From the NCBI RefSeq assembly GCF_025144335.1, contig NZ_CP083539.1:1365501-1429500 (forward strand): a stretch of 64,000 nucleotides of DNA, read 5' to 3'. The position numbers were made by a program, and so were the translations under genes. Positions 45,874 through 62,947 of the stretch are shown piece by piece (the first letter of the stretch is position 1; each line of letters opens with the position of its first letter). Origin of the DNA: Jannaschia sp. W003. GTDB taxonomy: Bacteria; Pseudomonadota; Alphaproteobacteria; Rhodobacterales; Rhodobacteraceae. Under the pieces are notes generated by a model. It saw only the letters and a program-made list of their open reading frames with translations, ran no database searches and was not told the origin of the DNA.

Positions 45874-45884
45874 CGGCGGGGTGA

Positions 45885-45974
45885 GGGGCTGGACGACGAC
45901 CCAGGCGGGGCTCGCTGTGGCTGCTTCCTTCCGGACCTGACCAGGTTGGCAAGGCGCCTGCCCGCGCCAACCCC
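45885..45974 (-). ncRNA. ffs: signal recognition particle 4.5S RNA
   Basis: On the minus strand the conserved SRP domain reads CTGGTCAGGTCCGGAAGGAA then GCAGCCACAGCGAG, including the GGAA tetraloop and the symmetric and asymmetric internal loops that bind Ffh. The ends pair as GGGGTTGG with CCAGCCCC, which sets a length of about 90 bases. It scaffolds Ffh for co-translational targeting to the Sec translocon, whose accessory genes yajC-secD-secF lie 2 kb away. Confidence 0.95.
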
Positions 45975-46037
45975 TCGGGGGCGCAGATAGCGGGGCGGGG
46001 CGATCCGCGCAAGGCGAGGGCGCGGAATCGGGGGGTG

Positions 46038-53477: not shown

Positions 53478-53912
53478 CTACCAGTGGCCGGTGTTCTCCA
53501 TCGAGGCCCAGGGCTCGGCGGGCGCCTTGGCGTCGCCGCGCTGGAGCAGCTCCACCGAGGCGTTGTCGGGCGAGCGCACGAAGGCCATGTGCCCGTCGCG
53601 CGGGGGGCGGTTGATGACGACGCCCGCATCCTGGAGCGCGGCGCAGGTCTCGTAGATGTCGTCCACGCGGTAGGCGAGGTGGCCGAAGTGGCGCGAGTCG
53701 GAGGGCAGGGCGTCGTCGCCGTCCCAGTTGTAGGTCAGCTCCACGTCCGCATGGCCGTCGTCCTGGTCGGGCGGGCAGAGGAACACCAGCGTGAAGCGCC
53801 CGCCCTCGTTGTCGATGCGGCGGCGCTCGCGCAGGCCGAGCAGCTCGAAGAAGCGGATCGTGGCGTCCAGGTCCTTCACGCGCAGCATGGTGTGGAGGTA
53901 TTCGATGCCCAT
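53478..53912 (-). CDS. gloA: lactoylglutathione lyase GloA (VOC family)
   Basis: GloA converts the methylglyoxal-glutathione adduct to S-lactoylglutathione. The 144-residue product has the two-module VOC fold with metal ligands His7 (YLHTMLRV), Glu in DVELTYNWD, His in FGHLAYRV and Glu in ASVELLQRG, consistent with a Ni/Zn glyoxalase I. GGGAGCCACC precedes the ATG. It works with glutathione made by GshA. It is divergent from thyX. Confidence 0.95.
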   Translation of the reverse strand: MGIEYLHTMLRVKDLDATIRFFELLGLRERRRIDNEGGRFTLVFLCPPDQDDGHADVELTYNWDGDDALPSDSRHFGHLAYRVDDIYETCAALQDAGVVINRPPRDGHMAFVRSPDNASVELLQRGDAKAPAEPWASMENTGHW

Positions 53913-54052: not shown

Positions 54053-54958
54053 ATGCCCCTCACCCCCGAGCAGCAAGCCGAGATCGACGAGACCCGCAGC
54101 ACCCCGCGCCCCACGCTGCGCGCCGTGTCCGAGGGCATGGAGCGGCACCTCTACGTTGCCAAACCGGTCCTCGACCACGGCTTCGTGCGCGTGGTCGACT
54201 ACATGGGCGACGACGAGGCCATCTGCCAGGCGGCGCGCGTCTCCTACGGGCGCGGCACCAAGGCGGTGTCGAACGACGAGGGGTTGATCCGCTACCTCAT
54301 GCGCCACTGGCACTCGACGCCGTTCGAGATGTGCGAGGTGAAGCTCCACGTGAAGCTGCCCGTGTTCGTGGCCCGCCAGTGGATCCGGCACCGGACCGCC
54401 AACGTGAACGAGTACTCCGCGCGCTACTCCATCCTGGACCGCGAGTTCTACGTGCCCGAGGCGCGGCACCTCGCGGCGCAGGCGACGCAGAACAACCAGG
54501 GGCGGGGGGCCGCCTTGGAGGGCGAGGAGGCCGAGCGCGTGCTGCGCTGGCTGCGCGAGGACGCGGACCGGGCCTACGACCACTACGAGGCGATGATCTC
54601 CCAGGACGGCCAGCAGGGCCTGGCGCGGGAGCTGGCGCGCATGAACCTGCCGGCGAACGTCTACACCCAGTGGTACTGGAAGGTGGACCTCCACAACCTC
54701 CTCCACTTCCTCCGCCTACGTTCGGATGCCCACGCCCAGTGGGAGATCCGCGTCTATGCGGACGCCATCGCGGAGTCGGTGCGCGACTGGGTCCCGATGG
54801 CCTGGCGGGCCTTCGAGGACTACCGGGTCGGGGGCGCGCAGCTCTCGGCGAAGGGGGTGGAGTGCGTGCGGCGGATGGCGCGGGGCGAGGAGGTGACGCA
54901 GGAGACAAGCGGGATGAGCAAGGGGGAGTGGCGGGAGTTTCGGGGGTTGTTGGGGTGA
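54053..54958 (+). CDS. thyX: FAD-dependent thymidylate synthase ThyX
   Basis: ThyX methylates dUMP to dTMP with methylene-tetrahydrofolate and FAD. The 301-residue product has the signature RHRTANVNEYS (RHRx7S) and the N-terminal HGFVRVVDYMGDDEAICQAA region; the C-terminal part ends MSKGEWREFRGLLG, as in relatives. The stop codon lies exactly at the change from GC-rich to AT-rich DNA. The next gene begins three bases later (GTG 54961) or overlaps (GTG 54955). The thyX coding sequence looks intact. Confidence 0.96.
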   Translation: MPLTPEQQAEIDETRSTPRPTLRAVSEGMERHLYVAKPVLDHGFVRVVDYMGDDEAICQAARVSYGRGTKAVSNDEGLIRYLMRHWHSTPFEMCEVKLHVKLPVFVARQWIRHRTANVNEYSARYSILDREFYVPEARHLAAQATQNNQGRGAALEGEEAERVLRWLREDADRAYDHYEAMISQDGQQGLARELARMNLPANVYTQWYWKVDLHNLLHFLRLRSDAHAQWEIRVYADAIAESVRDWVPMAWRAFEDYRVGGAQLSAKGVECVRRMARGEEVTQETSGMSKGEWREFRGLLG

Positions 54959-54960
54959 TA

Positions 54961-56088
54961 GTGAAACGAGCTAGCTCCATCGCGCCAGATAACTTCGACG
55001 CATTCTGCATCCGCGGCCTGAAACAGTTCCTCAATTTGGAATACGCATCGAAGCGCTTAATAGACCGGCAAAATGTACCGGTGCGCCATCACCGAAATGC
55101 TAGAAAGCAAGCCAAGCAAATCGGATTCTGCCTAGCCTTGGGCTTGGAGTATATGGAGAATTCCAAAGTTGCAACACTGGCAACAAAGCCGGTTTTGTTG
55201 TATTATTCGGCAATGAACTTTGCGCTTGCAGAGTTGTTGATGAAGCAGAGCGGCGACTCGAGCCTCACGTTAGCGAGAGCTGAGCATTCACATCACGGTT
55301 TAAGCTTTGGTGCGCCATCTAATGTCTCTCGAGATGCAACAACTTTGCAACAAATGAGCGCCTGCAAGGCTAAGCCGATGGTGTCATCAGGTAAGAGAAG
55401 AGGAACGTTTGAGCTTTGGCATCGAACTGCTCGTGAACATCCAGTCATCGGCGTCCATAGCGATCAGGACGGTAAAACCTCAGGGCCTATTCCTTTAATG
55501 ATAGGCGGTGACGAACGATTCGAATTGCTCGACGAAGGTGGTGTTTCCTTGCTCGAGTGCATAAAGCTCATTCCAAGCCTATCAGAAGAACTGGCGCGTT
55601 ATGGAGCATACTCGAGTTACGCACGGGGGATAATTTCTTCGACGAAGAGTGGCGAATGCCATTCAATTTCTGTGCTTGTTCATCCGGGTCCCGAAGAGAT
55701 AATAAGCGGTGTATCTGAAAACATATTGGTATCTCCTGCGCTAGTTCCGGGCATAGAGATCGAGGAGTTTCAGAGCGGCTTTGCTTTGACGGCGAACATC
55801 TATCGCGGCCAAAAAGTGAATCTAAGTTTGCCAATGGTCACTTCGCTAACTTCCGGGGAGGTGAGGATCTGCGGAGTTAAGACGTCAATCAACGAATTTG
55901 GCGCTTTTCTCGCCGCTCTCTTCATACTTAGCAATCTGTGTCGCTACTATGCTGACTTTTGGATGGAACGCATTTCCGCGCATGCAGGAATTGCAATGAT
56001 AGCGGAAAGTTTGTGCAGCGAGTACTTTAAAAGAGTCCCAGCATTGGTGCTTGCAGAGTTAGAGGGAACACTGTTCGTAAGGAGATAA
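54961..56088 (+). CDS. AT-rich YaaC-like protein of unknown function
   Basis: This 375-residue soluble protein resembles the YaaC family as I recall it: KPVLLYYSAMNFALAELLM (about residues 76-94), HHGLS (111-115) and a C-terminal helical LCRYYADFWMERISAHAG region. The molecular role is unknown. It is a clear compositional outlier: the block 55141-55200 has 27 of 60 G+C (45%) and the gene uses TTA, ATA and AGA codons that neighbours avoid. It starts at GTG 54961 (or GTG 54955), three bases after the thyX stop. Lateral acquisition is likely; a defence role is possible but not shown. Confidence 0.7.
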   Translation: MKRASSIAPDNFDAFCIRGLKQFLNLEYASKRLIDRQNVPVRHHRNARKQAKQIGFCLALGLEYMENSKVATLATKPVLLYYSAMNFALAELLMKQSGDSSLTLARAEHSHHGLSFGAPSNVSRDATTLQQMSACKAKPMVSSGKRRGTFELWHRTAREHPVIGVHSDQDGKTSGPIPLMIGGDERFELLDEGGVSLLECIKLIPSLSEELARYGAYSSYARGIISSTKSGECHSISVLVHPGPEEIISGVSENILVSPALVPGIEIEEFQSGFALTANIYRGQKVNLSLPMVTSLTSGEVRICGVKTSINEFGAFLAALFILSNLCRYYADFWMERISAHAGIAMIAESLCSEYFKRVPALVLAELEGTLFVRR

Positions 56089-56283
56089 ATTCGCTATTCG
56101 CAATGCTGCCCAAGACTCGCCCTTGGTTTAGTCATTCGGTAATTGACTCTTCTCAATAATCTAAACTGTGATGGTGATGTGTGAGCGTTATTGCATAATT
56201 CTACGGAACTCCGCCTATGCTTCTCTCGCCAAGCTATCCTTCACCCATAACCCCCGCGCCGCCGAGGACGCGGCCTCGGCTGA

Positions 56284-56535
56284 CACGCGCATGCCCTTGC
56301 GCTCGATCAGCAGGCCGTCGGGTGGCTCTCCCGGATGGATGCGCTTCAGAACCAGGCCATGGCGCAGGCGCAAGAGAGACGGCCGAGCGCCGAGCGGGCG
56401 CGCCTCCTCGCCGCGCTCAAACGGCTGGAGGCGGGGGAGTACGGCTCCTGCACCGAATGCGGCGAGACCATCGAGCCCGCGCGGCTGGAGGCCGACACCG
56501 CCATCCCGCGCTGCCGCGACTGCACGCGGGGATAG
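56284..56535 (+). pseudogene. DksA/TraR zinc-finger gene lacking its N-terminus
   Basis: The frame encodes LDQQAVGWLSRMDALQNQAM and then a C4 zinc finger (CTECGETIE to CRDC), the C-terminal two thirds of a TraR/DksA-type protein of about 105-110 residues. An in-frame TGA at 56281-56283 stops the upstream extension, and the DNA before it changes to AT-rich sequence within about 40 bases. An ATG at 56335 could still make a 66-residue product, but the conserved LDQQ segment would then be untranslated. The insertion bearing the YaaC-like gene most likely removed the 5' end. Confidence 0.65.
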
Positions 56536-56541
56536 GCCCCC

Positions 56542-59500
56542 TCAGATCAGCACGATGTCGTCCGCCAGCCCCGCCGTCGTCGTGATCCCCGCGAGCACGA
56601 TCTCGCCCGCCGCGCCGAGGTCGATCACCACGCGGCCGCCCTCGAGGGCGGCGAAGCGGTCGACGAGCTGGGCTCCGCCCGCGGCGCCTCCGGCGAGGGC
56701 GCGGGCGATGTGGATCTCGTCGGCGCGGGTGTCGTAGTTCTGGATCACGTCGCGCCCGAAGCCGCGGGCGTCGAACACGAAGCGGTCCGCGCCGCCGTCG
56801 CCGCGCATCGTGTCGCGCCCGCCGCCGCCGTGGATCGTGTCGTCCCCCGGGCCGCCGTAGAGGCTGTCCTCGCCCGCGCCGCCCCAGAGCCGGTCCCGGC
56901 CGCTGCCGCCGAACAGGCGGTCCGCGCCGTGCTCGCCGCGCATCTGGTCGTCGCCGCCGTAGCCGAACATGCGGTCGTCATGGTTGCCGCCGAACATGCG
57001 GTCGACGTCGACGTGGCCGCGCATGATGTCGCGCCCGCCCTCGCCGAACATCGTGTCGCGGCCCCGGCCCGCGTAGAGCGTGTCATCGCCCGCGCCGCCG
57101 CGCAGCACGTCGTTGCCCGCCACGCCGCGCAGGTCGTCATCGCCCGCCCCGCCGCCGATGGTGTCGTTGCCGTTCTCGCCCACCAGCAGGTCGGCCCCGG
57201 CGTTGCCGTGGATGCGGTCGTGGCCGTTGTGCCCGCGCAGCACGTCGTCGCCGCCGTGGCCCAGCAGCCAGTCGTTGCCCGGGCCGGCCTTCACGGTGTC
57301 CGCGCCCTCGCCGCCGTAGAGCGAGTCGTTGCCCGCCTGGCCGAAGAGGCGGTCGTCGCCGGCGCGCCCGTACAGCTTGTCGTGGCCGCCGCGGCCGAGG
57401 AAGTGGTCCGCGCCCGCGCCGCCGTCGAGCCAGTCGGCGGACGCGCCGCCGCCGAGGCGGTCGGCGCCGTCGCCGCCGTAGATCCGTCCGCCGCCCGAGC
57501 CGGCCTCGAGCGTGTCGTCACCGGCGCCGCCCACGAGCGTGTCGCGGCCCGCGCCGCCCTCGACCCGGTCGGCGCCGCCGCCGCCGTCGATGCTGTCGTG
57601 ACCGTCCTCGCCGCGCAGCGTGTCGCGGTCGTCGCCGCCGAGGAGGCGGTCGTTGCCGCTGCCGCCCTGGATGCGGTCGCGCCCGGCGTTGCCCCAGACC
57701 GAGTCGGCGCCCGAGCCGCCCCAGATCCGGTCGTCGCCGCCGCCGCCCCAGAGCGCGTCGTCGCCGCTGGCGCCGAGCAGGGAGTCGTCGCCGTCGTCGC
57801 CCCAGACCCGGTCGCGCCCGCCGCCCGCGATGAGGCTGTCGTCGCCGTGCTCGCCGCGGATCGAGTCGCGCCCCGATCCGGCGGTGATGCGGTCGTCGTG
57901 GCGCCCCCCGAGAAGGCGGTTCGAGCCGCCCGCGGCCTCGATCGTGTCGCGCCCGTCGCCGCCGCTGGCGCGGTCGGTGCCGCGGCCCAGCGCGATGCGG
58001 TCGTCGCCGGCCTCGCCCCAGACGTGGTTGCTGCCCTCGCCGGCGAGGATGCGGTCGTCGCCGGCCTCGCCGTGGATCGTGTCGGCGCCCCCGCCGGTGT
58101 CGATGCGATCATCGCCCGCGCCGCCCCAAGCGCGGTCGCGGCCCGAGCCGCCGTGGAGCCGGTCGTGGCCCGAGCCGCCGTGCAGGTGGTCGGTGCCGCC
58201 GTCGCCGCGCAGCACGTCGGCGCCGGGGCCGCCGTCCAGGGTCTCGGAATCGGCGGAGCCGACGAGGGAGTCGTCGCCCTCGCCGCCGCGCGCGAGGCCG
58301 CCGCCGGTGCCCGCGCGCAGGGTGTCGTTGCCGGCGTCGCCGTCGAGCGTGTCGCGCCCCGTGCCGCCCTCGATCCAGTCGTCGCCGTCGCCGCCCGACG
58401 CCCGGTCGCCGCCGCTGCCGCCCACGATCCGGTCGTTGCCGAGCCCGCCCGCCAGCGTGTCGGCGCCGCCATCGCCGCCGAGCGTGTCGTTGCCCTCGTC
58501 GGCGAGGATGCTGTCGCGGCCCTCGCCGCCGAGGATCACGTCGTCGCCGAGGCCGCCCCGGGCCACGTCGTCGCCGGTGCCGAGCTGGATCACGTCGCGG
58601 CCGTCCGCGCCCGAGACGGTGTCGTCGCCCGCGCCGCTCTCGATCCAGTCGTCGCCGCCGTAGCCGCGCATGGTGTCGGCGTCGTCGGTGCCGGTGAGGC
58701 TGTCGCGCTCGCCGCTGCCGTGGACGCGGTTGCCGCGGATCGCGTCGCGGGGGTCGGGCAGGACCTGCAGGTCGCGGGCGAGGCCGAGCATGTCGACCGC
58801 GTCGAAGTCGTCGCGGGCGATGGGGGCGCCGTTCCGGGTCACGAGGCGCAGGGTCTCGGCGCCGTGGCGCAGGACGGCGCCGCCTTCGGTGGTCTCGATG
58901 CGGAGCTGCGAGACCGCGTAGAGGCCGTCCCAGGCCGAAAGGTCGATGCGGTCCACGCCGACTTCGAAGTCGGCGACCGTGTCGGCGGCGCCGTCGGCAT
59001 CCATCACGAAGCGGTCGGCGCCCGCACCTCCGCGAAGGGTGTCGGCGCCGGCGCCGTCCCATAGCACGTCGTCGCCCGCGCCGCCCGCGAGGGACTCGGC
59101 GCGGTCGCCGCCCGCGACGACGCGGGTGCCGGAGACGTCGAGCGAGAGGTGGGTGACGCCGCCCTCGGTCTCGGAGGTGGCGAAGACGTGGAGCCGTCCG
59201 CCCGCCACGTGGAGGGCGAGGGCGTTCGGGTTAGCAAGCGCGGCGCCCGCGCTGTCGGCGACCGTCGAGAGCGCGACCAGCCGTCCCGTGGGCAGGAGCG
59301 CGAAGGCCGTCAGGCCGTCGTCGCCGCCGCCCGCAACCACGTAGTGGATGCCGCCCGCCTCGGTGGTCTCCAGTACGGAGGCGGTGGCGAAGCGGGTGGT
59401 GCGGTCGTCGAGCACGTGGTCGAGCACGTGGATCGTGCCGGCGGCATCCAGCTCCAGCACCGAGAGGCTGCCGGTGCCCGCGGCGCCCACGAGGGCGACG

Positions 59501-60159
59501 GTGCGGCCCTCCAGCTCCAAGACGCGCAGCACGGAGGGGGCGTTGATGCCGAAGGCTTCGTTGGCGCCGAGGCTGTCCCTGGCATGGAGGCGCCCGGCGG
59601 CGTCCAACTCCCAGACGGTGACGCCGTGCTCGGCGCCGTCCGCCGTCACCACGAAGTCGCGGCCGCCGGCGGTGTAGCCCGCCATGGCGGTGGGCAGCGC
59701 GGCGTAGGTGTCGGTGCCGTCGCGGCGGAAGTAGGCCTGCTGCCAGCCGCCTGCGCCGTCGGCGGCGAGGGTGTAGAAGCCGCCCTCGCCGGGCACCGCG
59801 GCCAGGAGCGCGGGGGCGCCGCGGTGGGTGGCGGCTGCGAGCAGGAGCGCGTCGCCGGTGAAGCCGCCCCCGCCCCCCAGGATGCGGGCGCCGTGGCCGT
59901 CGTCGATCCGCGCCAGCATGTCGGCGCGCAGGGAGAAGGTGCGGCCCGCGACGGCGACGTCCACCGTAGCGCCGGGTGCCGCGGCGGTGCCCTGCAGCGA
60001 GAGGTCGCCGTCCCGAAGGCGGTGGCTCTGCACGGTGGCGCCGGAGAGGGACTGGAGCTTGACCGTCGCGGCCCCGCCCGCGGTCTCGACCCAGAGGTCG
60101 GGCGCGGTGGCGTCGCGGGCGGCGCCGGTGCCGCTGGTGCCGTGAAGGGTGAACCGCAT
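56542..60159 (-). CDS. large RTX calcium-binding repeat protein
   Basis: This 1205-residue protein is probably secreted. The N-terminal 340 residues look like beta-propeller or lactonase-type repeats (GGGDDGLTAFALLPTGRLVA and similar blades). A first short RTX block follows near residue 355 with a serralysin-like segment (ADTVADFEVGVDRIDLSAWD). Dozens of GGxGxDx(L/I) nonapeptides then run from about 480 to 1110 and would form calcium-bound beta-rolls. It ends with a second ADRFVFDARGF-type unit, typical of type I secretion substrates. There is no classical signal peptide, and no ABC exporter is in the window. Adhesin or matrix roles are likely. Confidence 0.88.
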   Translation of the reverse strand: MRFTLHGTSGTGAARDATAPDLWVETAGGAATVKLQSLSGATVQSHRLRDGDLSLQGTAAAPGATVDVAVAGRTFSLRADMLARIDDGHGARILGGGGGFTGDALLLAAATHRGAPALLAAVPGEGGFYTLAADGAGGWQQAYFRRDGTDTYAALPTAMAGYTAGGRDFVVTADGAEHGVTVWELDAAGRLHARDSLGANEAFGINAPSVLRVLELEGRTVALVGAAGTGSLSVLELDAAGTIHVLDHVLDDRTTRFATASVLETTEAGGIHYVVAGGGDDGLTAFALLPTGRLVALSTVADSAGAALANPNALALHVAGGRLHVFATSETEGGVTHLSLDVSGTRVVAGGDRAESLAGGAGDDVLWDGAGADTLRGGAGADRFVMDADGAADTVADFEVGVDRIDLSAWDGLYAVSQLRIETTEGGAVLRHGAETLRLVTRNGAPIARDDFDAVDMLGLARDLQVLPDPRDAIRGNRVHGSGERDSLTGTDDADTMRGYGGDDWIESGAGDDTVSGADGRDVIQLGTGDDVARGGLGDDVILGGEGRDSILADEGNDTLGGDGGADTLAGGLGNDRIVGGSGGDRASGGDGDDWIEGGTGRDTLDGDAGNDTLRAGTGGGLARGGEGDDSLVGSADSETLDGGPGADVLRGDGGTDHLHGGSGHDRLHGGSGRDRAWGGAGDDRIDTGGGADTIHGEAGDDRILAGEGSNHVWGEAGDDRIALGRGTDRASGGDGRDTIEAAGGSNRLLGGRHDDRITAGSGRDSIRGEHGDDSLIAGGGRDRVWGDDGDDSLLGASGDDALWGGGGDDRIWGGSGADSVWGNAGRDRIQGGSGNDRLLGGDDRDTLRGEDGHDSIDGGGGADRVEGGAGRDTLVGGAGDDTLEAGSGGGRIYGGDGADRLGGGASADWLDGGAGADHFLGRGGHDKLYGRAGDDRLFGQAGNDSLYGGEGADTVKAGPGNDWLLGHGGDDVLRGHNGHDRIHGNAGADLLVGENGNDTIGGGAGDDDLRGVAGNDVLRGGAGDDTLYAGRGRDTMFGEGGRDIMRGHVDVDRMFGGNHDDRMFGYGGDDQMRGEHGADRLFGGSGRDRLWGGAGEDSLYGGPGDDTIHGGGGRDTMRGDGGADRFVFDARGFGRDVIQNYDTRADEIHIARALAGGAAGGAQLVDRFAALEGGRVVIDLGAAGEIVLAGITTTAGLADDIVLI

Positions 60160-60299: not shown

Positions 60300-61589
60300 C
60301 TAGCGCTGGCGGATGCGGTCGCCCAGGGCCGCGGCGGCCAGCCCCGCGGTGGCGGCGAGCCCGCCGATCCAGCGCCCGCCGGGCAGGGCGGGCACGGGCA
60401 GGGCGGCCATGGCGCGGAAACGCTCGCGTTCGCCCTCCAGCGCCTCGGCGACGAGCTTGCCGAAGAGGGCCGACAGGGCCAGCCCGTGGCCCGAGTAGCC
60501 GCCCGCCGCGAAGAGGCCGGGCGAGATCTCGGCGAGGTAGGGCAGGCGCGTCGCGGTGACCGCGAGGGTGCCGCCCCAGTGGAAGGGCAGGGGCGCGTCC
60601 CGCAAGCTGGGATAGACCCGCGCGAGGTTCGAGCGCACGCGCCCCTCGATGTCGCGCGGGAAGCGGCGGCCGTAGCTCTCGCCGCCGCCGTAGACGAGCG
60701 TGCCGTCGACGGTCTGGTGGAAATAGTTCACCACGAAGCGCCCGTCGGCCACGGCGAGGGGGCGGCGCATGGGGGCCGCATCCCCGAGCGGCTCGGTGGC
60801 GGCGATGTAGTTGTTGATGGGCAGCGCGCGCCGGGCGAGGCGGCCCACGGCGTGGGCGCTGTAGCCGTTGGTGGCGTGGAGCACCGCGCCCGCGCGCACC
60901 GTGGCCGCGCCGGTGCGCACGCGGTGGGGGCCGACGGCGTGGACCTCGGAGCCTTCGTGGATCGTGACGCCCGCCGCCACGCAGGCCCGCGCGAGGCCGA
61001 GCACGTAGGCGAGCGGGTTGCAGAAGCCCCCGTCCTCGTGGAGCACGCCGCCCGCGTAGGCCTCCGAGCCGATCAGGTCGGCGAGGGCGCCCCGGTCCAG
61101 GACGGCGTTCACGGCGCCGTAGTGGTCGCGCAGGTAGGCGGCCATGTCGCCGGCCTCGGCGAACTCGGCGGCGGTGAGGTCGGCGTGGACGAGGCCGGGG
61201 GTGTAGCCGGCCTCGGGGGCGTGGGCGGCGATCAGCGCGCGGGTGAGGTCGCCGGCCTCGGCGCAGAGATCCCAGACCCGGCGGGCGGCGGCGTGCCCCA
61301 GCCGCCGCTCGAGCCGGGGCTGGTCCCAGTTGAGGCCCCAGCCGATCTGTCCGCCGTTGCGCCCCGAGGCGCCCCAGCCGACGCGGTGCGCCTCGAGCAC
61401 CACGACGCGGCGTCCCGCCTGCGCCGCGTGGAGCGCCGCCGAGAGGCCGGTCAGCCCCGCGCCCACCACGCAGAGGTCCGCCTCCGTGTCCTCGCGCAGG
61501 GGCGCGAGGCGGGCGAGGGGGCGGGCGCGCGACGCGTAGAAGCTGGCGGGGTACTCGCCCCGCTCGCCGTTCGCGTGCAGCCAGCTCAT
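60300..61589 (-). CDS. puuB: FAD-dependent oxidoreductase, PuuB-like (gamma-glutamylputrescine oxidase)
   Basis: This 429-residue DAO-family flavoprotein has the dinucleotide motif LCVVGAGLTGLSAALHAAQA near residue 40, VGWGASGRNGGQIGWGLNWD after it, and a C-terminal AAGGYSGHGLALSALFGKLV, the pattern of PuuB/OrdL enzymes. It would oxidise gamma-glutamyl-putrescine or a related glutamylated amine. The ATG overlaps the stop of the glutamine-synthetase-like gene (ATGA), so it is second in a PuuA-PuuB pair. The substrate could differ. Confidence 0.88.
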   Translation of the reverse strand: MSWLHANGERGEYPASFYASRARPLARLAPLREDTEADLCVVGAGLTGLSAALHAAQAGRRVVVLEAHRVGWGASGRNGGQIGWGLNWDQPRLERRLGHAAARRVWDLCAEAGDLTRALIAAHAPEAGYTPGLVHADLTAAEFAEAGDMAAYLRDHYGAVNAVLDRGALADLIGSEAYAGGVLHEDGGFCNPLAYVLGLARACVAAGVTIHEGSEVHAVGPHRVRTGAATVRAGAVLHATNGYSAHAVGRLARRALPINNYIAATEPLGDAAPMRRPLAVADGRFVVNYFHQTVDGTLVYGGGESYGRRFPRDIEGRVRSNLARVYPSLRDAPLPFHWGGTLAVTATRLPYLAEISPGLFAAGGYSGHGLALSALFGKLVAEALEGERERFRAMAALPVPALPGGRWIGGLAATAGLAAAALGDRIRQR

Positions 61590-62947
61590 ACGTTCAGGAG
61601 CAGGTGCTCGCGCTCCCAGGGCGAGATGACCTGCAGGAAGGCCCCGTATTCCAGCCGCTTCACGGCGGCGTAGATCGAGGCGAAGCGGGGGTGTAGCACC
61701 TCGTGGATCTCGCTCGCGGCCTCGAAGCGGTCGAGTGCCTCGGACAGGTCGCGGGGGATGCCCTCCTGGCTCTCGTAGGCGTCGCCCGTGAACTGGGGCG
61801 CGGGGTCGATGCGGTTCACGAGGCCGAGGTAGCCGCAGGCGAGCGAGGCGGCGATGCCGAGGTAGGGGTTGCAGTCCATGCCGGCGATGCGGTTCTCGAC
61901 GCGGCGCGCGAAGGGCTCGGACACCGGCACGCGCAGGCCGGTGGTTCGGTTGTCGCGGCCCCATTCGAGGTTGATGGGCGCCGCGAAGTCCGGGACGTAG
62001 CGGCGGTAGCTGTTCACGTAAGGGGCGAGGAGGGCGATCACCTCCGGAAGGTGCCGCTGCATGCCGCCGATGAAGTGGAGGAAGCGCTCGGTCTCGAGGC
62101 CCTTCTCGTCCACGAAGATGTTGCGGCCCGTGGCGATGTCGACGACCGAGTGGTGGATGTGCATGGCCGAGCCCGGCTCGTCCTGGATCGGCTTGGCCAT
62201 GAAGGTCGCGTAGCAGTCGTGGCGCAGCGCGGCCTCGCGGATCATGCGCTTGTAGCAGAAGATCTCGTCGGCTAGGCGCACCGGGTCGCCGTGGCGCAGG
62301 TTCAGCTCGACCTGGCCCGAGCCGCCCTCCTGCAGGATGCCGTCGATCTCCAGGCCCATGGCCTCGGCGAAGTCGTAGATGTCGTCGATCACGCGGCCGT
62401 ACTCGTCGATCGCGGACATCGAGTAGGCCTGCCGCCCCGCGGCCCTCCGCCCCGAGCGGCCCATGGGCGGCTCGACCGGCTTGGCAGGGTCGATGTTGCG
62501 GGCCACGAGGTAGAATTCCATCTCGGGCGCCACCACGGGCTTCCAGCCGCGCGCCTCGTAGAGGCCGACCACGCGCTTGAGCACGTTGCGGGGGGCGGCG
62601 GGCACGGGCTCGCCGGACTGGTCGAACATGTCGTGGATGACCTGCACGGTCCAGTCGGCGGTCCAGGGGGCGGCGCGGGTGGCGGCCCAGTCGGGGCGCA
62701 GGATCATGTCGGGCTCGGTGAAGGCGGCGTCGCCGTCGTCGGCCCAGTCCCCGGTGATGGTCTGCTGGAAGATCGAGTTGGGCAGGTAGAAGTAGGGCTG
62801 CGTGGCGAACTTGGCGGCCGGCATGGCCTTGCCGCGGGCGATGCCCGAGAGGTCGGCCACCACGCACTCCACCTCGTCGAGGCGGCGCCCGTCCACGTAG
62901 TCGCGGGCGTGCTGGGGGGCGTGCTCCAGCCAGTCAGAGTGCGGCAT
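61586..62947 (-). CDS. puuA: glutamine synthetase-like gamma-glutamylpolyamine synthetase (PuuA-like)
   Basis: This 453-residue member of the glutamine synthetase fold has an N-terminal beta-grasp (VECVVADLSGIARGKAMPAA) and catalytic parts QDEPGSAMHIHHSVVD, GMDCNPYLGIAASLACGY and the ATP-site NRTTGLRVP. Its pairing with PuuB indicates gamma-glutamylation of putrescine or a similar amine rather than ammonia assimilation. Its start overlaps the upstream amidotransferase gene by 14 bases and its stop overlaps puuB. The operon thus reads amidotransferase, puuA, puuB. Confidence 0.9.
   Translation of the reverse strand: MPHSDWLEHAPQHARDYVDGRRLDEVECVVADLSGIARGKAMPAAKFATQPYFYLPNSIFQQTITGDWADDGDAAFTEPDMILRPDWAATRAAPWTADWTVQVIHDMFDQSGEPVPAAPRNVLKRVVGLYEARGWKPVVAPEMEFYLVARNIDPAKPVEPPMGRSGRRAAGRQAYSMSAIDEYGRVIDDIYDFAEAMGLEIDGILQEGGSGQVELNLRHGDPVRLADEIFCYKRMIREAALRHDCYATFMAKPIQDEPGSAMHIHHSVVDIATGRNIFVDEKGLETERFLHFIGGMQRHLPEVIALLAPYVNSYRRYVPDFAAPINLEWGRDNRTTGLRVPVSEPFARRVENRIAGMDCNPYLGIAASLACGYLGLVNRIDPAPQFTGDAYESQEGIPRDLSEALDRFEAASEIHEVLHPRFASIYAAVKRLEYGAFLQVISPWEREHLLLNV

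Follow-up and report, generated by a model that had tools for sequence, protein, structure and literature searches.

The end of the thyX gene in the family Rhodobacteraceae is a hypervariable one-gene slot, and the genes that occupy it are diverse and turn over rapidly. In the 64,000-nucleotide stretch of Jannaschia sp. W003 that was analysed here, referred to below as the window, the slot holds a gene for a YaaC-family protein. We consider it likely that the slot, which mostly accommodates a single gene, is rich in defence functions, is read together with thyX and is often translationally coupled to it. The YaaC gene is one state of this slot, which is occupied differently in most relatives.

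The window has a high G+C content with one exception. A two-state HMM delimits a segment of 48% G+C just behind thyX, where consecutive 500-bp windows have G+C fractions of 0.49, 0.48 and 0.59; elsewhere the values are 0.66-0.81, and apart from the segment no 500-bp window within the 64 kb falls below 0.65. The left end of the segment lies within the final codons of thyX, and the segment contains one ORF, on the thyX strand, of 375 codons when counted from the second of two candidate GTG starts; the first GTG is in frame and overlaps the thyX stop by 4 nt. These results agree with the first-pass annotation of the DNA, which had reported a drop in G+C with its left edge at the thyX stop and had suggested a discrete insertion carrying one gene.

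The features of the region are listed in Table 1. The glyoxalase-family gene adjoins thyX in most same-genus relatives, and the frame of the convergent right neighbour is present downstream of thyX in most of the same-genus relatives compared. The large RTX gene that lies between the slot and this neighbour was not found at the corresponding place in the relatives compared. The DksA/TraR-type gene is a remnant that lacks its N-terminal part; longer same-genus relatives occur in two loci (L054 and L055), located elsewhere. ThyX is also encoded by Rhodobacter and Loktanella phages (L305, L306 and L307), with about 61-65% identity to the host protein, and phage RcIroh has an HNH endonuclease gene just upstream of its thyX.

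Table 1. Features of the thyX region and other features of the window (positions are those of the window)
Feature	Position	Strand	Evidence and remarks
Small SRP RNA, bacterial	45880-45976	-	RF00169, 58.9 bits
Glyoxalase-family gene, conserved left neighbour	53478..53912	-	PF00903, 60 bits
thyX, anchor gene of the slot	54053..54958	+	Pfam Thy1 PF02511, 194.9 bits; stop TGA 54956-54958
G-rich tail of thyX, bounding the slot on the left; possible ribosome-binding region for the occupant	54930..54958	+	CGGGAGTT in tail, occupied versus empty loci
Low-GC content of the slot	54947..56250	.	Two-state HMM
YaaC-family occupant gene	54955..56088	+	PF14175, 55.9 bits; start GTG 54955 or GTG 54961
DksA/TraR-type zinc-finger gene remnant, right neighbour	56284..56535	+	PF01258, 29.6 bits
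Large RTX gene (hemolysin-type calcium-binding repeat)	56542-60159		Between slot and conserved convergent neighbour
Convergent right neighbour, conserved	60303..61590	-	Oxidoreductase by eye; ends approximate

The YaaC gene was found in none of 19 same-genus genomes and in none of four other genomes of the family; the finding that had been named beforehand as counting against an insertion, presence of this gene at the corresponding position in relatives, was not made. Inspection of the thyX regions of 20 relatives indicated that the flanks are mostly conserved and that the content behind thyX is different and mostly low in G+C. The foreign segment is real; what had been taken for a single insertion is one of several states of a site whose content differs in most relatives.

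Two larger sets of loci were compiled. Set 1 combined the earlier relatives with 60 further genomes of the family, each from another genus, and provided 79 usable loci out of 81 (L073 and L115 were too short, and G008 of the same genus was not covered at length). The 60 genomes came from 157 with a thyX match among 198 searched; they were drawn from the higher-scoring matches, with some omissions, and so are not a random sample. A low-GC segment at the thyX stop was called in 57 of the 79 loci. Discrete segments shorter than 1.8 kb were present in 51 loci, and 22 loci had none; the remaining six of the 57 have segments longer than 1.8 kb, in part owing to a lower G+C content of the entire region, and were not counted as occupied. 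"Empty" here means only that there is no low-GC segment, and some empty loci (by eye, L052 and L105) may contain a gene whose G+C content is higher. Within the same genus, 16 of 19 loci have a low-GC segment at the thyX stop. Where the flanks are high in G+C, a segment is present in 39 of 54 loci, as against one other low-GC segment of at least 500 bp in the same 503 kb; by eye, this lone example (L034) resembles the far side of an occupant that was split by an insertion sequence.

Set 2 was obtained by scanning named genomes with the thyX-tail motif. At least 118 stretches matched, of which 80 loci were taken, including representatives of Jannaschia, Sulfitobacter, Roseovarius, Rhodovulum, Marivita and others. 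Fifteen were too short, which left 65, and 47 of these are occupied; after removal of 12 loci from assemblies already in set 1, the figure is 36 of 53. Variable content between conserved flanking genes, as expected of a defence hotspot, is thus what is observed at thyX.

The turnover of the occupants is just as evident. When the 600 nt behind thyX were compared among the 132 non-duplicate loci of both sets, only 13 of 8646 pairs shared more than 60 nt, and among the 87 occupied loci only one such pair (L034/L125, 69% identity over 330 nt) had both members occupied. At the protein level, five protein pairs from four locus pairs were alike at an E value of 1e-4 among 62 set 1 proteins. An example is L033 and L035, which have flanks that are 91-93% identical over kilobases and wholly different contents: one holds a CAP12-type TIR gene, the other an unclassified gene for 232 residues. 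In such comparisons the homology is lost directly behind the tail of thyX, and the right break of several pairs falls on or beside a hairpin module, rich in G+C, that is described below. In our reading, single low-GC genes come from a very diverse pool and are exchanged so fast that even close species differ.

What kind of proteins would this pool supply? Pfam was run on 43 of the 62 occupant ORFs of set 1 (all from this set), and 23 of them reached the cut-off and 20 did not. Thirteen of the 43 have domains that, by our own sorting, are defence or toxin-antitoxin related: CAP12 TIR (two), TIR_2 (three), HSDR_N, AbiJ_NTD4, RelA_SpoT, Fic, PIN_12, HicB, SocA_Panacea and HEPN_RiboL-PSP. This is a raw share. 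The 10 others with a Pfam match were not counted as defence; they are DUF4062 (two), YaaC (two), AAA_16, AAA_31, an ion channel, DUF6338, DUF2971 and HAD. Integrase and transposase domains were absent from all 43. A search of 51 occupants against PADLOC resulted in matches to 44 families at an E value of 0.001, a figure that counts families and not occupants; the 25 families listed among these 44 include ThsB, PycTIR and several PDC families, where PDC stands for 'phage defence candidate' in excerpts of PMC11514479. Ten occupants without a clear class match no PADLOC family. The pool would accordingly seem rich in anti-phage and toxin-antitoxin proteins, and the guess in the first-pass annotation that single-gene cargo of this sort is often defence related receives support from the 13 of 43 occupants.

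The identity of the occupant in the window, which had been called YaaC-like from the letters, was borne out by the Pfam search (E value of 6e-15, with a score of 55.9 bits against the curated cut-off of 27 bits). All 36 other homologous proteins that were found belong to the same family, except for one with no listed domain, and the best homologue outside this genome is 42% identical. A conserved LLYY...HHGL region is common to the occupant and 28 aligned homologues. The protein matches no PADLOC or NCBIfam model, and no relative of it was found in PLSDB plasmids or viral contigs. YaaC genes are rare, being present in seven of 388 genomes, yet two of the seven (G000 and G173) are in the thyX slot. 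In addition, the N-terminus of the homologue P0006, MAGVYGGCGV, resembles a translation of the thyX tail in a different frame, and so this gene probably sits in the same slot.

A structural model of the 375-residue protein was predicted with confidence (mean pLDDT of 92.6), although the structure searches that had been proposed for it gave no solved structure convincingly like the model, and no PDB sequence matches the YaaC profile. Two residues, R106 and H112, are invariant in the 29 aligned YaaC homologues. The HEPN ribonuclease motif is R-x4-6-H within the HEPN fold. The R106/H112 spacing fits this motif, but a profile comparison with the HEPN occupant of L119 gave a probability of 0.1%, and a nuclease role for YaaC is a lead only. 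An anti-phage role of this YaaC is suggested by association only; most likely the protein would be a defence effector that is encoded by one gene and works by abortive infection. The titles and abstract beginnings that were searched included none on what YaaC-family proteins do.

The arrangement of the occupants relative to thyX displays a consistent pattern. In 76 of 86 loci the longest ORF of the occupant has the same orientation as thyX, and in 10 it has the opposite one (p 1e-13); 43 of 51 loci of set 1 and 33 of 35 of set 2 retained one ORF each. Among the 76 plus-strand occupants, 52 have a start codon within 12 nt of the thyX stop, compared with 19-31 of 67-75 at seven control positions within the same ORFs; the start codon overlaps the stop by 4 nt in 28, and in 24 the start is further away. 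The thyX tails also differ between occupied and empty loci of set 1. The ending [AGT]TGA is present in 29 of 51 occupied and four of 22 empty loci, and CGGGAGTT in 43 of 51 and nine of 22, respectively (p 4e-4), whereas the alternative tail CGCGAG or CGCGAA is found in two of 51 occupied and 12 of 22 empty loci (p 2e-6). As with all p-values given for this arrangement, relatedness among the loci is ignored.

The natural reading of this anatomy is that the G-rich thyX tail would be a ribosome-binding site with translational coupling. The occupant would probably be expressed from the transcript of thyX. If its start codon overlaps the stop codon of thyX, as is possible in the window, ribosomes that finish ThyX would go on to translate it; the G-rich tail would help this translation. 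By eye, the thyX stop lies within a short hairpin, whose arms vary but match each other, in seven loci (L170, L189, L208, L213, L215, L228 and L233), and the occupants of set 2 loci with such a hairpin begin some 50-100 nt further on.

A second slot lies behind lepA, so that thyX is not unique, although most gene ends examined are not such sites. Low-GC content is located at or near the lepA stop in four of 11 same-genus loci and further on in two. One of these two is the genome studied here (L138), in which it starts about 300 nt behind lepA, and a minus-strand ORF of 259 codons, which has no Pfam match, lies about 470 nt beyond the gene. Two loci from other genera that were found through the hairpin module (L128 and L132) also have low-GC content behind lepA; the other lepA loci noted are L133, L134, L137, L140 and L143. 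The content behind lepA is defence-like, and the occupants include an AbiEii-type AAA protein, a nucleotidyltransferase, a Panacea protein and a Fic protein.

The hairpin module itself is a GC-rich element of several hairpins with conserved letters that lies to the right of some thyX slots. A strict module pattern has matches behind thyX, with uniform orientation, in 15 of 146 loci (L079, L093, L118, L126, L170, L181, L186, L187, L190, L199, L202, L204, L210, L225 and L231); most loci lack it, including the slot in the window. A covariance model located the module in eight of 10 genomes, at 34 places and with 1-11 copies per genome. Thirty places were read, of which five are at thyX slots, four others have low-GC sequence on their 5' side and 21 do not. 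The five loci scanned against Rfam matched no family at the gathering threshold. We regard the module as probably a repeat of intergenic sequence in general, on which some slots border. In L289, L299 and L304, low-GC segments abut the module away from thyX and lepA and possibly represent further slots.

Several explanations other than the one favoured here can be offered for these observations. The first-pass annotation had envisaged a self-contained insertion bracketed by its own imperfect inverted repeat. The letters are indeed there, as TCACCC and ACCCCCG are common to both segment edges, but the bracketing role is not supported. The edge repeat is the 15th listed among 61 inverted pairs in the 1.7-kb region, and among 3000 pairs of 40-nt pieces drawn at random from the window, 9.7% reach a score as high; hence, it does not exceed chance, as terminal inverted repeats should, and is no evidence for an element. 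Of 21 loci inspected by eye, only three (G000, L039 and L044) have a similar inverted match where the composition changes on the right. As the insert also has no recombinase and other genes fill the same place in most relatives, a self-contained insertion is contradicted already and is very improbable.

One could also imagine a dedicated cassette mechanism, in which the thyX tail and the right-hand hairpin module are the recognition ends for a recombination system acting in trans that inserts and swaps single genes. The left breaks just after the conserved thyX tail, the homology that resumes at or next to the module in L170/L186, L190/L210, L204/L233 and L033/L035, and the uniform orientation of the module in the 15 loci would all fit such a mechanism. 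However, resumed homology is to be expected there whatever the mechanism, since both boundaries are conserved, and the module is missing at most loci, that of the window included, and has no low-GC 5' side at 21 of 30 places. Together with the lack of integrase and transposase domains in the scanned occupants, this makes a cassette mechanism unlikely in our opinion. We are equally doubtful about its boldest form, in which the thyX stop, together with at least the site behind lepA, would take in genes through an undescribed system of the Rhodobacteraceae that exchanges one gene at a time, places single immune genes from a shared pool over a housekeeping stop and replaces them faster than species diverge, with the G-rich tail and the hairpin module as boundaries. 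Another possibility is that the gap between convergent genes is a neutral landing site that tolerates insertions, that genes expressed with thyX may stay and that defence genes are frequent there only through their frequency among foreign genes. The 30 of 43 occupants without a defence label in our own sorting, and the second such site behind lepA, are what would be expected from this, but other gene ends are nearly free of low-GC segments (the single case in 503 kb mentioned above), and the near-universal bias in strand and start position argues for selection on expression and not mere tolerance. A neutral site therefore seems improbable to us as well, and a hypervariable, defence-rich slot that is read with thyX is the explanation we prefer.

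We found no description of such a thyX site in the literature, a search that covered titles and the beginnings of abstracts of open-access papers, with few subscription papers or preprints among them. A site that, throughout a large bacterial family, has one gene, nearly always a different one and often an immune one, lends itself to the discovery of new single-gene defences. Inspection of the sequence behind thyX, and behind lepA, in further genomes would yield candidates from their location alone, many of them of no recognised family. The slot also poses the question of how genes are swapped precisely and fast at a site without a recognised recombinase.

Integron gene cassettes comprise one gene each, share an orientation and occupy a fixed site beside a conserved sequence, and in these respects the thyX slot resembles them. 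It differs in that the 43 scanned occupants include no integrase gene and in that no attC-type site was recognised when the right ends were read by eye. Two reports concern defence hotspots between conserved genes, namely the defence islands of E. coli (PMC10121019) and the hotspots of P2 and P4 phages and satellites (PMC9122126). These have in common with the thyX slot a variable content between conserved flanks, which in the thyX slot as well would be rich in defence genes. Unlike them, the thyX slot has no recombinase recognised in the scanned occupants and mostly holds a single gene in the orientation of thyX, starting at or over the thyX stop and different in almost every genome. The thyX slot would be a defence hotspot of a new form.
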